From Planctomycetota bacterium (GTDB taxonomy: Bacteria; Planctomycetota; Phycisphaerae; FEN-1346; JAACEH01): a stretch of 17,420 bases of DNA. Positions 8,297-14,284 of this stretch are shown in pieces. The notes beneath the pieces are model-generated. The model did not search any database, was not told the DNA's origin, and worked only from the letters and a program-made list of their open reading frames with translations. Numbering within the stretch: the stretch's first letter is position 1; each line of letters opens with the position of its first letter. Position numbers and translations under genes: made by a program. The stretch is taken from positions 1-17,420 of the forward strand of contig JAFGPY010000091.1 of NCBI GenBank assembly GCA_016935955.1. Direction: 5' to 3'.

Positions 8297-8340
8297 GGGC
8301 ACGGGCCCTCGGCTTCGCTCGGGACGGGCTGGCCGTGCCC
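8297..8340. repeat. Palindromic element, GGGCACGG stem
   Basis: GGGCACGG (8297-8304) faces CCGTGCCC (8333-8340). The 28-nt interior contains CCCTCGGCTTCGCTCGGG, which itself can fold. The same outer stem recurs at 10681-10747 with a longer interior, and both are preceded by GTCCTA. It lies just upstream of the M42 start. Confidence 0.7.
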
Positions 8341-8496: not shown

Positions 8497-8526
8497 ACAA
8501 GCCCCCGGCACCGCCGGGGGATCGAA
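8497..8526. repeat. Hairpin module ACAAG-stem-ATCGAA
   Basis: CCCCCGGC (8502-8509) and GCCGGGGG (8513-8520) form a perfect 8-bp stem with a 3-nt loop, flanked by ACAAG and ATCGAA. It is the inverse orientation of the modules at 8545-8570 and 11408-11433: same flanks, different stem bases. It lies in the 317-base gap between the M42 and CoA-disulfide-reductase genes. Confidence 0.7.
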
Positions 8527-10366: not shown

Positions 10367-10496
10367 CATGGCTGCGGAGCAGCCGTGAGGGCGCCACGCG
10401 TTTACAAGTAGACGCGTGCTCGTGCGCAACAGGCTTGTCGGCACGCTTCTGCGAGTTCCAAGCGTGGCCCCCCCGGCCTTCTTCATGCGAAATCCT
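10367..10496. repeat. Compound palindromic repeat (degraded copy of the 14178 element)
   Basis: A CATGGCTGC module (10367-10375 facing 10379-10387), like that at 6916-6936, is followed by a 108-bp unit from 10389 to 10496. The unit has a palindrome CACGCGTTTAC (10396-10406) facing GTAGACGCGTG, a GGCTTGTCGGCACGC core, a decayed second hairpin (CACGCTTCTGC against a damaged partner near 10456-10466), and the tail CTTCATGCGAAATCCT (10481-10496). The same order occurs at 14178-14284. It lies in the long gap between the divergent reductase and small-protein genes. Confidence 0.75.
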
Positions 10497-10680: not shown

Positions 10681-10747
10681 GGGCACGGCCCCTCGACTCC
10701 GCTCCCCTCGACGTGCTCGGGGCAGGCGGGACAAGCAGGCCGTGCCC
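10681..10747. repeat. Palindromic element, GGGCACGG stem with long interior
   Basis: GGGCACGG (10681-10688) faces CCGTGCCC (10740-10747). The 51-nt interior holds CCCTCGAC and TGCTCGGG motifs and ends in GACAAGCAGG. The outer stem is identical to the element at 8297-8340. A small stem-loop (CGGGTC 10763-10768, GACCCG 10773-10778) follows, between the repeat and the next gene. Confidence 0.7.
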
Positions 10748-11110: not shown

Positions 11111-11141
11111 GGCATGCCTGACGGGGCAGGCATGACACCCC
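11111..11141. repeat. Palindrome CATGCCTG right after a stop codon (small loop)
   Basis: CATGCCTG (11113-11120) faces CAGGCATG (11127-11134) with a 6-nt loop and is followed by ACACCCC. It begins 4 bases after the stop of the small secreted protein and could end its transcript. A version with a 30-nt module in the loop occurs 100 bases downstream at 11212-11260. Confidence 0.65.
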
Positions 11142-11156
11142 GCACCATGAAGGGTG

Positions 11157-11206
11157 TAGGGGTCGCTCGCGAGCGACCCTATCAGGGCGGCTCACGAGCC
11201 GCCCCT
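11157..11206. repeat. Tandem GC-rich hairpins bracketed by TAGGGG and CCCCTA
   Basis: Two hairpins lie back to back. The first pairs 11157-11169 (TAGGGGTCGCTCG) with 11170-11181 (CGAGCGACCCTA), with one extra G. The second pairs 11184-11193 (AGGGCGGCTC) with 11196-11206 (GAGCCGCCCCT), with one extra C. The outer ends TAGGGG and CCCCTA are themselves complementary. This resembles a repeat type common in intergenic DNA of several phyla. Confidence 0.7.
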
Positions 11207-11211
11207 ACAAC

Positions 11212-11266
11212 GGCATGCCTGCCTCCCGACGGCGCTCGGGGTTCGCGACAAAGCAGGCATAGCCCC
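11212..11266. repeat. Palindrome GCATGCCTGC with ~30-nt loop module
   Basis: ATGCCTGC (11215-11222) faces GCAGGCAT (11253-11260). The 30-nt loop (11223-11252) contains CGACGGCGCTCGGG and ends in GACAAA. It resembles the loop module at 11334-11362 although the outer stems differ. Confidence 0.7.
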
Positions 11267-11283
11267 CGCTCCCGCAGCATGTA

Positions 11284-11379
11284 GGGTGGCTGCTTGCAGC
11301 CACGCGGCTCCTGGCTTGTCGGCATGCTTCTGCCCCTCGACGTCGCTCGGGATCGACGACAAGCAGAAGCATGGCACCC
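11284..11379. repeat. Two-hairpin element with GTCGGCATGC core and loop module
   Basis: The order is a small palindrome (TGGCTGC 11287-11293 facing GCAGCCA 11296-11302), a spacer, the core GGCTTGTCGGCATGC, and a second stem CATGCTTCTGC (11323-11333) facing GCAGAAGCATG (11363-11373), then GCACCC. A 29-nt module fills the second loop (11334-11362). The plan is the same as in the 14178 element, which has only two bases there. Confidence 0.75.
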
Positions 11380-11407
11380 GCTAGACCGTGGCGGTCTGCT
11401 GAACGTT

Positions 11408-11433
11408 CGATCCCCCGGCAGTGCCGGGGCTTG
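11408..11433. repeat. Hairpin module GATC-stem-GCTTGT directly after the GH116 stop
   Basis: CCCCGGCA (11412-11419) and TGCCGGGG (11421-11428) form an 8-bp palindrome about one base. On the minus strand it begins 5 bases after the GH116 stop codon. The flanks match the modules at 8497-8526 and 8545-8570. It may act as terminator or 3' stabiliser. Confidence 0.65.
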
Positions 11434-14079
11434 TCAGGCGTTGGACCAGCGGAGGTCGAGCGGACGGCCGGGCGCGACGGTGACCGTGCGGCCCATGGCG
11501 AATTCCAGGGCGCCCTCCTCGTCGACGAAGCACGTGCAGGGCACGTTGCGCTTGCCCTGGCGCACGCGGGCCTTCGTGCCGCGACGACCGGCGGCCACAC
11601 CCAGGACGACCCAGTGCAGCGGCAGCTTGCCGCCGATCACGTCAATGGTGGCGCAGCCGCCCTGCTTGTCGGTCTTCTGGCTGTAGCGACCCCAGGCGCC
11701 ACCCGTGGAAAAGAAAGTGCGGAAGTCGTTGCGATGGACCTTCGGCGCGAAGACGACGCGCTGCTCGGGGGCGGCATACCGGAACCCGCTGAGCGCCCAG
11801 ACGAGGGCCCACGAGGACATGCTGCGGGCGTAATGGTTGCCGCACTCCACCTCGTTCCACGGGTTGCGATGGTAGCCGTCGTGCCGGTCGCGCGCGGCTT
11901 TGACGATAGCCAGCCCCTCCTCAATCATCCCCTCGTAGACCAGATGGGCGGCAACCTGGTACTCCATACCCGGCCAGATCTCGTGGGCATAGAGAAAAGG
12001 ATTAGTCTCGCGCATGCCGTGCGGCCAGGTGCAGGCCAGCAGCCCGGCCTCGTCGCCCACGGCGTAGACGCGATGGGTGTTGACGTGGTCGGTCAGGGTG
12101 GTGCGGAAGTTGTAGCGGAAGATCGATCGCATGGCCCCGCGGACGTGGTCGCGGTCGAACAGGTAACCCAGGCCGAGCATGTGGGCGTACCATTGGCCGA
12201 TCAACTGGTCGGACAGGCACCCGCGGCCGTACTGGTACGGCGGCTCGTCGGGCGCGAGCACACGGTCCTGCCGGTGCTGAGCGAAAAGAGTCTTCTTGAT
12301 CGGCGTCAGCCGCGCGGCCGCGGGGTCCACCTTCTGAATGTAATAGTCGCCGCACCAGAGGTGCTCGTCCATCCACCGCTTGCCGGACTCGGCCAGCCGG
12401 CGGTACTCCTGGGCCGCATCGGCGTCGCCCATGCGGTCGGCCATGGCGGCGCCGGCCTTGAGTGCGGCCAGGTAGAGCGAGCCCATCATTGTGTTCGGCC
12501 CGTAGAACTCGATGTCGTAGGTGTTGTGCTGGAGGCCTTCCATGACGCCGTCGCGGTCGCGGTCCCAGTACTTCCAGGCGTACTCGATGGCCTTGCGTGT
12601 CTGCGGCCACCAGCGCCCGAGCCAGGCGTCGTCGCCGGTGGATCGCCAGTGGCGGTAGACGCCGAGGACGACGCCCATCTGCCCGTCGGCGGCCGCATGG
12701 AACGAGGCCTGGCCGCGCGTGCCCAGGGGCAGCGGCAGACGGAAGACCATGGCCCCGTCGTCGAGCATCGAGTACTTCAGGTGGTTCTCCAGGGCCGAGG
12801 CCTGGAGGCCGGGATAGAGGGCCGCCGGGGTCTGGGCGTAGTTCCAGACGTGCGTGCACGTGCCTTCGCAGCACCCGGCGTCCGGGTGGCAGCCTTCCCA
12901 ACCGTAGAACGATCCGTCGGGCAGCCGCAGGCAGGTGGTGGTCTTGAGGATCGACATCTGGCTACCCGCGGCATCGAGCACGTGGGCCGGAAGCGTGGAG
13001 CCGTAGAACGTCTCGGCGAACCGCCGCGTGCGATCTTCGAGACGGCGGAGGTTCTTGGCCGCATGGCGTGCGACGGCCCAGGCGTCGGCGAAGAGGCTCG
13101 CGTAATGGTTCCGCCAGACGGGCTGCGAGGTCTCGCACTTGCACGAGTTCCCCAGGGCCGTGTCCCAGTACTTGCGGACGTTCGGGACGTGCCAGGCGAT
13201 GAGGATCGGCAGCGCGGCCTCCTGCCCCGGCTTGAGGTTGACGCTCAGGGCGATCGAGCCGACGTCGGTGCAGCCGTCGTCGCTGGTGACGCGGTCGCGG
13301 CGGTCGTCGAGCCGGCCGGCGGAGGCCTGGTCCCAGAACAGTTCCAACTGGTCGAAGACCGGCAAGCGCGGCCAGCGCGTCTGGACCTGCACGCGACGCC
13401 ACGGCGTGGCCAAGGCCATGGAGCCGAACTGCGGCGAGCGCTTGGCGTGCTTGCGCGTGCTCATGGCCAGGCCGCGGACGCCCTTCTCCTCGACGTACTC
13501 GGTGACGTTGCGGCCCAGGTCGGGGTGACCGGCCATGTTCCGCAGGTTGGCTGTCACGACGGCGCGCACGGATTTCGAGACCGCGGGGTTCTTCAGGTGC
13601 ACGAGCAGAACGGCCACGGGCAGCGAACTGTCGTCGGCCTCCAACGGGATCATCGGGTTGAAGGCTTCCATGGAGACGCGGAGCGGCACCTTCGCGTCGT
13701 CGAAGTCGATCCGGGCGATCGGGAACGTGCCGGTGAAACGGTTGCCGGCGAAGTGCGGCAGCCCTGCCCCGTCGGTGCACGGGATGCCGTGCGCGAACTC
13801 GCGCGGGCCGGCGAGCGGTCCCTGGAGGACGCGCGTCACGGGCCGGTCGCCGTCGCGGCAGGCGTAGAGCGTCAGGAAGGTCATTGGGCAGGTCTGCCCC
13901 TTGGCCGGCCGGTTGAAGATCTCGAAGTCGCGCAGCTGGCCCCAGCCGCCGAGGGAGATGCTGCCCGTGCCGATGCCGCCCAGCGGGAAAGCGATCTGGG
14001 CGCGGTCCTCGCCGGTGAAAGTCCTCTGCGGGCCGACGTGCGTCAGGCGGCTCGTTCGCCTGGGTGAAGGCTTGGCCAT
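11434..14079 (-). CDS. GH116-family glycoside hydrolase (GBA2/beta-glucosidase type)
   Basis: 881 residues from the ATG at 14079; AAGGAG lies 9 nt upstream. The N-terminal beta-domain opens with IAFPLGGIGTGSISLGGWGQLRDFEIFN, the hallmark of the GBA2-type N-terminal domain. The C-terminal (alpha/alpha)6 barrel carries EGTCTHVWNYAQ, with Glu405 at the place of the catalytic nucleophile, and NTYDIEFYGPNTM, with Asp522 at the place of the acid/base. The order and spacing fit the archaeal SSO1353 and bacterial TxGH116 enzymes. Known activities are beta-glucosidase, beta-xylosidase, N-acetylglucosaminidase and, in animals, glucosylceramidase. There is no signal peptide, so it probably acts in the cytoplasm on imported substrates. 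It is divergent from an AraC-type regulator about 295 bases away, a likely local control. Specificity is unknown. Confidence 0.9.
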   Translation of the reverse strand: MAKPSPRRTSRLTHVGPQRTFTGEDRAQIAFPLGGIGTGSISLGGWGQLRDFEIFNRPAKGQTCPMTFLTLYACRDGDRPVTRVLQGPLAGPREFAHGIPCTDGAGLPHFAGNRFTGTFPIARIDFDDAKVPLRVSMEAFNPMIPLEADDSSLPVAVLLVHLKNPAVSKSVRAVVTANLRNMAGHPDLGRNVTEYVEEKGVRGLAMSTRKHAKRSPQFGSMALATPWRRVQVQTRWPRLPVFDQLELFWDQASAGRLDDRRDRVTSDDGCTDVGSIALSVNLKPGQEAALPILIAWHVPNVRKYWDTALGNSCKCETSQPVWRNHYASLFADAWAVARHAAKNLRRLEDRTRRFAETFYGSTLPAHVLDAAGSQMSILKTTTCLRLPDGSFYGWEGCHPDAGCCEGTCTHVWNYAQTPAALYPGLQASALENHLKYSMLDDGAMVFRLPLPLGTRGQASFHAAADGQMGVVLGVYRHWRSTGDDAWLGRWWPQTRKAIEYAWKYWDRDRDGVMEGLQHNTYDIEFYGPNTMMGSLYLAALKAGAAMADRMGDADAAQEYRRLAESGKRWMDEHLWCGDYYIQKVDPAAARLTPIKKTLFAQHRQDRVLAPDEPPYQYGRGCLSDQLIGQWYAHMLGLGYLFDRDHVRGAMRSIFRYNFRTTLTDHVNTHRVYAVGDEAGLLACTWPHGMRETNPFLYAHEIWPGMEYQVAAHLVYEGMIEEGLAIVKAARDRHDGYHRNPWNEVECGNHYARSMSSWALVWALSGFRYAAPEQRVVFAPKVHRNDFRTFFSTGGAWGRYSQKTDKQGGCATIDVIGGKLPLHWVVLGVAAGRRGTKARVRQGKRNVPCTCFVDEEGALEFAMGRTVTVAPGRPLDLRWSNA

Positions 14080-14177
14080 AGTGCACGACTCCTTCCAGTG
14101 GCGAGTTCTCTCCCACAGTCCTACCACAACGACGAGCCGCGTGCAACGGTTCCCGGAAACGAACGGCCGCAGCGCGT

Positions 14178-14284
14178 GGGTGCCACGCGTCTACTTGTAG
14201 ACGCGTGCTCGTGCGCAACCGGCTTGCCGGCACGCTTCTGCGAGCAGAAGCGTGGCACCCCTAGCCATCTTCATGCGAAATCCT
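14178..14284. repeat. Compound two-hairpin repeat, best-preserved copy
   Basis: It is bounded by GGGTGCCACGC (14178-14188) and GCGTGGCACCC (14250-14260). The first palindrome pairs CACGCGTCTAC (14184-14196 region) with GTAGACGCGTG around a TT centre. The core reads GGCTTGCCGGCACGC. The second pairs CACGCTTCTGC (14231-14241) with GCAGAAGCGTG (14244-14254). The tail CTTCATGCGAAATCCT (14269-14284) is shared with the copy at 10481-10496. The element lies in the divergent promoter region between GH116 and the AraC gene. Confidence 0.8.

Follow-up and report, generated by a model that had tools for sequence, protein, structure and literature searches.

A short dispersed palindromic unit that probably enters the loops of other palindromic repeats and genes in Phycisphaerae

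The stretch of DNA analysed here, referred to as the window, comprises 17,420 nucleotides of contig JAFGPY010000091.1 from a planctomycete of the class Phycisphaerae (assembly GCA_016935955.1). Ten main genes of the window were scanned with Pfam, which named GH116 and seven more and gave no match for two. The window has no tRNA, and nothing in it matches Rfam above the gathering score. A search of plasmids with the GH116 gene found no match. The best relative of the GH116 protein in the sampled class is that of genome G003 (62% identical); G003 and a second genome, G040, are too distant from the window for intergenic synteny.

The intergenic spaces of the window contain many hairpins. Hairpins with 9-bp arms and loops of 2–6 nt occur six times against a mean of 0.64 in dinucleotide shuffles, a number reached in none of 200 shuffles, and those with 10-bp arms and the same loops occur twice (reached in 1 of 200). 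With loops of up to 50 nt, there are three hairpins with 11-bp arms (mean 0.43, reached in 2 of 200) and five with 10-bp arms (mean 1.52, reached in 4 of 200). The hairpins that concern us, and the short sequence found in some of their tips, which we call the module, are listed in Table 1. An earlier note, made from the letters of the window, had given the positions and sequences of these hairpins, and direct reading confirms both.

Table 1. Positions in the window of the GH116 gene, the host hairpins and the module copies
Feature	Position	Strand	Remarks
GGGCACGG host hairpin (CACGGSC type)	8297..8340		module at 8305-8332
Decayed copy of CACGCTTCTGC hairpin	10442..10466		repeat families D2, D6, D10; by eye
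GGGCACGGCC host hairpin (GGGCACGG stem, CACGGSC type)	10681..10747		47-nt loop, 10691-10737
Empty host hairpin CATGCCTG-ACGGGG-CAGGCATG	11113..11134		6-nt loop
Filled host hairpin ATGCCTGC-30 nt-GCAGGCAT	11215..11260		same-arm loops: 32 nt, against 6 nt when empty
Degenerate module copy CTCCCGACGGCGCTCGGGG...GACAAA	11223..11252	+	loop similarity to 11334 and 10691
Filled host hairpin CATGCTTCTGC-29 nt-GCAGAAGCATG, then GCACCC	11323..11373		
Module copy CCCTCGACGTCGCTCGGGATCGACGACAA	11334..11362	+	
GH116 gene	11434..14127	-	
Composite element, outer GGGTGCC...GGCACCC around CACGCGTCTAC and CACGCTTCTGC hairpins	14178..14260		inverted repeat I2 and sequence reading
Empty host hairpin CACGCTTCTGC-GA-GCAGAAGCGTG	14231..14254		2-nt loop

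Two host stems had been described as occurring both with a tiny loop and with a loop of about 30 nt, and both pairs are found in the window. With like-for-like arms, the CATGCCTG/CAGGCAT stem has 6 nt in the empty loop and 32 nt in the filled one (+26), and the CTTCTGC-type stem has 2 and 29 nt (+27). The two tips of the CACGGSC type are longer by 19 and 42 nt than an empty loop of 5 nt. None of these increments is 24 nt, and the four tips would be diverged examples of the module, the last with two modules; by eye, the 47-nt loop reads as one module broken by a second. The loops had also been described as alike across unrelated stems. In local alignments of the four loops this holds for five of the six pairs, whose scores were reached by at most 3 of 500 letter shuffles (none for 11223/11334, three for 11223/10691), and fails for the pair 8305/11223, which is not significant at 51 of 500.

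Two further arrangements were seen in the window. Positions 11155–11209 contain two opposed hairpins with GTAG and CTAC near their outer ends (TGTAGGGGTCGCTC...GAGCCGCCCCTACA), arranged as in a GTAG REP dimer. At 8503–8526 and 11406–11429, CCCCGGCRNYGCCGGGG and its flanks are present as inverted copies, which resemble the CCGGGGGC hairpins around a RAYT in G004 (L129). Hairpins similar to CCGGGGGC carry the module in their tips in G171 (L211 and L216, and L217 with the variant CCGTGGGC).

The module is an imperfect palindrome. Its core, CCCCTCGACNNCGCTCGGG, is present in 41 of the 397 genomes of the class, with 110 copies in all and at most 20 exact copies in one genome (G040), and the core pattern read backwards, as a control, is matched in 1 of 397. 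The commonest form on the other strand is CCTGYCCCGAGCGNAGTCGAGGGG. A first module pattern with up to two mismatches had given few matches, in 2 of 5 genomes, and a pattern with the tail GACAAGCAG gave none in the 8 genomes of the order of G003. We read 101 of the 110 core copies, drawn from all 41 genomes. In the copies of the module that were read, the stem takes the form CCC/GGG, or ACCCC/GGGGT with a bulge. The core continues as RCAGG (CCTGY on the other strand) in 40 of the 101 copies, as GTGAC (GTCAC) in 13, as RCAAG in 5, as GTAAAC in 2 and otherwise in 41. Copies of the module in G160, G142 and, twice, G154 come after one and the same short coding stretch, whose stop codon the module, by eye, seems to supply (L183, L184, L224, L226).

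Inverted arms of at least 8 nt flank 11 of the 101 exact copies, against 1.8 expected when flanks are re-paired between genomes and 2.1 at pseudo-positions. Hairpin tips are thus enriched for the module, yet they are a minority home: 90 copies fail the 8-nt arm test, and other copies lie in genes or in plain intergenic DNA. Comparison shows that the module is a dispersed unit, found at some orthologous sites and missing cleanly from others.

Outside the window, comparable tips filled with the module are 24 nt longer than the empty ones, in several unrelated host hairpins. The search of G384 for the CACGGSC pattern with loops of 4–34 nt gave 49 sites, all of which were read by eye. Forty are 19 nt long and empty, and six, all exactly 43 nt long, contain the module or a close variant; the remaining three measure 42–44 nt without the module, and two of these span two hairpins. 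The empty sites fall into 20 with an ATCCT or ATCTT loop (on either strand) and 20 with another loop. Three of the fills are at ATC^CT and three at ATC^TT, and no fill has a loop of the types seen at the remaining 20 empty sites. Two outcomes that the earlier note had named as contrary to insertion were not found: copies of one stem do not all carry the same loop, with six module-filled and 20 empty copies of the same loop type in G384, and the loops do have a module in common, which recurs.

Module-filled hairpins of the CACGGSC type are found in G384, G321 and G250; among the 26 of 50 sites listed for G321, three are 43 nt long with the module or a close variant. One CACGGSC tip of that genome (G321:C24:16111-16150) is 40 nt long (+21 relative to empty) and holds a different small palindrome at the same point, so the CACGGSC site accepts other modules. 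The slot CCCTCACC...ACCCTCTCCC of G003 contains CGGCCCTGAAGGGCC in 15 nt in one copy, and in one copy the same with the module in its tip in 39 nt. A further host, hairpin B (GTGGTGAGC...TCGAACCA), has loops of 3–4 nt in G384, G191, G195 and L372. Its loop grows from 3 to 27 nt with the module in G191, and from 3–4 to 28 nt in G181, where the module is reversed. An apparent filled B loop in G181 (CAGGTCGAACC...) was rejected, being a tandem of two B units. Inspection of the flanks of the insertions by eye gave no target word common to them. In the genomes compared, the same tips appear both empty and filled, and two unit types appear nested in one another.

The host stems of the window are themselves repeated elsewhere. 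A scan for CTTCTGC hairpins in one genome per species gave at least 120 stretches, and the 80 titled ones are all from planctomycetes. At least 151 distinct sites lie in the 120 stretches listed, and among these the loop is 2 nt in 136, 3 nt in one, 5–8 nt in 11, 16 nt in one and 21 nt in two. The three longest loops among the matches listed (16, 21 and 21 nt) hold other short palindromes, and the host/module pair seen at 11323, with the module in a CTTCTGC loop, occurs at none of the 151 sites listed. In the two genomes of the G003 family, filled CTTCTGC loops come down to a single site, read on both strands, with overlapping hairpins. All 15 distinct CATGCCTG hairpins in the DNA fetched from G040 have a 6-nt loop. 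The CACGGSC pattern gives 46 to 180 matches in 6 of the 8 genomes searched, against 5–21 for the pattern read backwards, and is not enriched in G250 (2 against 2 reversed) and G199 (3 against 7).

One alternative to entry at the tips is that hairpins combining host and module originated on one or a few occasions and were then multiplied as whole composite REPs. The filled hairpins of G384 and G250, which have nearly identical letters and the same partner hairpin, would fit such a history; host and module vary little within G384, and the fills of G384, G250 and G321, alike in host, in module and in position, may all derive from a single composite. Against this, the same module is found in both orientations in the unrelated hosts CACGGSC, GGCCCTGA/GGGCC, hairpin B and, in G171, CCGGGGGC, the window hosts CTTCTGC and CATGCCTG also carry it, and orthologous gene sites show empty as well as filled tips. 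We regard spread as ready-made composites as unlikely, although it is the best placed of the alternatives.

The orthologous sites lie in coding genes. In RluD of G077 the module adds eight codons (CPERSRGA). All 60 homologues aligned with it, the best 60 of 120, lack the insert, and the nearest of them is 91% identical. NIF3 of G354 is eight codons longer than L317 at the module, which is absent from the seven other rows examined; L337 (G321) has another small palindromic insert there. For AddB, the module is present in G195 and G283. In G195 it has two bases at a variable loop position, and at the orthologous place in G280 (88% identical protein) it has 26 bases, equivalent to an extra 24-nt B-type unit. 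The other 14 AddB rows examined have neither unit, and the spot is variable. The AddB gene of G250 (L288) contains another small palindromic insert at this variable spot, where relatives carry the module. For these two genes the rows were caught by a motif script, with 8 rows read of 30 loci for NIF3 and 16 of 30 for AddB, and the exact boundaries are less sure because the variable spot also holds other sequences in some relatives.

RsmB was compared in 40 aligned rows, namely the query and P0121–P0159. At site 1, two rows are nested, with unit B carrying unit A in its tip (+16 codons), one has B alone (+8 codons) and 37 have neither. At site 2, two rows are nested, one is a truncated nested form (P0122), five are B-like (P0128, P0134, P0137, P0145, P0151), one has another form (P0147) and 31 have neither. 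P0123, the nearest sister of the nested query (97% identical), has neither unit at both sites, which points to fast turnover; precise loss or recombination may also occur, and some of the states may have come about in this way instead of by stepwise gain. Filled and empty versions at orthologous sites, which the earlier note had named as a check on insertion, are thus found in relatives (AddB of G195 and G280, and RsmB in three states) and not at the window's own sites.

A difference of a whole nested insert at both sites between such close sisters would also be expected if nested hairpins were old and the inner unit had been deleted precisely across the hairpin, leaving stems that only look empty. 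The short direct repeats that flank the RluD and RsmB inserts, seen by eye, are compatible with this. Empty is, however, the common state, in 37 of 40 rows at RsmB site 1, in all 60 RluD homologues and, as a 2-nt loop, in 136 of the 151 CTTCTGC hairpins among the matches listed. Loss alone also does not account for one module in unrelated hosts, and we consider it improbable as the general explanation.

Replication slippage, which the earlier note had offered as a second way for the module to spread at tips, fares worse. Palindromes are prone to slippage, and the module is itself an imperfect palindrome that might be made in place. Slippage copies neighbouring sequence, however, not a common module, and the inserts were not found to copy adjacent sequence; identical letters turn up in stems of unrelated sequence and inside genes. 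This recurrence of one module leads us to reject slippage alone, and we give it very little chance. That selection on structured RNA or terminators, rather than movement, produced the similarity is least credible of all: the window hairpins are intergenic, and complementary flanking triplets are present in 10 of 17 distinct cores that are not of the searched CCC/GGGG stem type, but the module lies in frame in the coding sequences of RluD, RsmB and AddB and is absent from homologues, and no structured RNA of Rfam is matched in the window.

The presence of a REP-associated tyrosine transposase (RAYT) gene had been named as another check. Matches to Y1_Tnp (PF01797) were found in 5 of 5 and in 7 of 7 genomes searched, with G003 in both sets, and 40 RAYT-like loci were fetched out of 75 distinct matches. 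One Y1_Tnp open reading frame in G040 (L371) has four CATGCCTG hairpins around it, and in G002 (L390) and G003 (L392) intact CACGGSC hairpins lie on both sides of a RAYT-like domain that is in frame inside valS. These loci show two host stems, CATGCCTG and CACGGSC, on the flanks of RAYT-like genes. The check has a negative outcome for the CTTCTGC stem, found beside the Y1_Tnp match in 0 of 40 loci, and for the module, whose core is on both sides in 0 of 40 and occurs singly in 2 of 40. The flanks of the host hairpins read GGGTGCCA or GTGGCA, and the GTAG tag is absent.

The valyl-tRNA synthetase genes of four Phycisphaerae, G004 (L389), G002 (L390), G003 (L392) and G321 (L393), have an in-frame RAYT-like (Y1_Tnp) domain in the same place, with 245–275 residues between YPL and TTRPET. 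The flanking CACGGSC hairpins are on both sides in L390 and L392, on one side in L393 and on none in L389. In L392, the host hairpin in frame gives HGQDARAT-like peptides (CACGGGCAAGATGCCCGTGCCACT), again in 24 nt. Titles and abstract beginnings in the open-licence literature yielded no description of a RAYT inside valS.

The best explanation of these observations, with a probability of about 0.65, is that the module is mobile: a dispersed, REP-like short palindrome, typically of 24 nt, which can enter the loops of other palindromic repeats as well as genes. We go no higher, and leave some weight with the spread of composites, since the host/module pair of the window turned up at no other site listed. 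The proposal that a small module enters hairpin tips is supported by its dispersal, by its presence in the tips of several unrelated hairpins and by the empty and filled states of orthologous sites. The insertion idea of the earlier note is thus largely supported and its interpretation as a whole partly so.

The module (CCTGYCCCGAGCGNAGTCGAGGGG or its complement) would move as an intact piece. Host palindromes may extrude from single-stranded DNA, such as the lagging-strand template, during replication, and the exposed loop would then preferentially attract an event in which one folded unit is added. A candidate actor is a RAYT/IS200-like Y1 transposase working in trans; alternatively, template switching between palindromes that share a few bases could have the same effect. 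Composite hairpins of host and module may then spread as one unit. A more specific version of entry by a mobile unit, which we put forward only tentatively and think doubtful, is a system of two tiers, in which RAYT-driven palindromes have a parasite of their own, a unit exactly 24 nt long and without a gene, which targets the extruded loops of other palindromes, with one folded copy per event. If this were true, loops would grow in 24-nt steps, and the unit would be among the smallest mobile units known, targeted by structure and not by sequence. Orthologous coding sites that show empty, single and nested states of a unit whose length hardly varies provide insertion junctions that can be aligned, and with these one can ask whether the loops of single-stranded hairpins are what is targeted, and by which enzyme.

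Among known systems, the CGTC-tagged REPs (with TGTC and CCTC variants) have short loops, intragenic copies and no dedicated transposase, and they have been equated with RPE-4/RPE-6 of Rickettsia and dRS3 of Neisseria (Di Nocera et al. 2013, PMC3733652). The module is similar in that it is a short palindrome with a short loop, is dispersed, occurs in pairs and also within genes, and has no dedicated RAYT beside it in the 40 loci fetched. The CGTC REPs have their tag unpaired at one end, and the module may have a comparable TGTC/CGTC-like end. The intragenic sites are also comparable, as CGTC REPs lie in recBCD and pseudouridine synthase genes (PMC3733652) and the module in AddB and RluD. The stems of CGTC REPs measure 8–9 bp with a near-invariant complementary AT start (PMC3733652), which the stem of the module lacks, and for this reason we describe the module as CGTC-REP-like without assigning it to that superfamily. 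The same paper also documents REPs that lie within palindromes; for GTAG-23 of T. roseum, whose target has hundreds of copies, many targets are empty. Its Discussion leaves open how REPs of the CGTC type multiply without a transposase. The sections of PMC3733652 compared describe neither a step fixed at 24 nt nor a stepwise nesting of units at coding sites that are orthologous.

REP-targeting insertion sequences provide a second comparison. ISPsy8 inserts at the symmetry axis of a REP hairpin, and IS1397 and IS621 also target REPs (PMC1525189); judging from the parts of that source compared, such elements carry a transposase gene, whereas the unit here is about 24 nt long (26–27 nt in the window) and has none. 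In Volvox organelle genomes, palindromes have inserted into palindromes, with repeats averaging 50 nt (PMC2670323). This nesting is similar to that of host and module, and the passages of PMC2670323 compared contain no orthologous series of filled and empty sites.

The host stems CATGCCTG and CACGGSC, as repeats that flank Y1_Tnp genes, are similar to those of RAYT/REP systems such as the GTAG REPs and REPtrons; they differ in that the host hairpins have no GTAG tag and the inner module has no RAYT of its own. Elhai and colleagues reportedly described, in 2008, small dispersed repeats of cyanobacteria, one of about 24 nt, that nest in other repeats. These belong to a different lineage, and we liken them to the module by description, not by sequence. 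No description of the 24-nt unit was found in titles and abstract beginnings of the open-licence literature. As far as our literature searches reach, two features are new: the step of 24 nt, seen outside the window, and the nesting in three states at coding sites that are orthologous. The module with its hairpin nesting belongs to a known kind of bacterial repeat and offers a case of it that can be put to the test.
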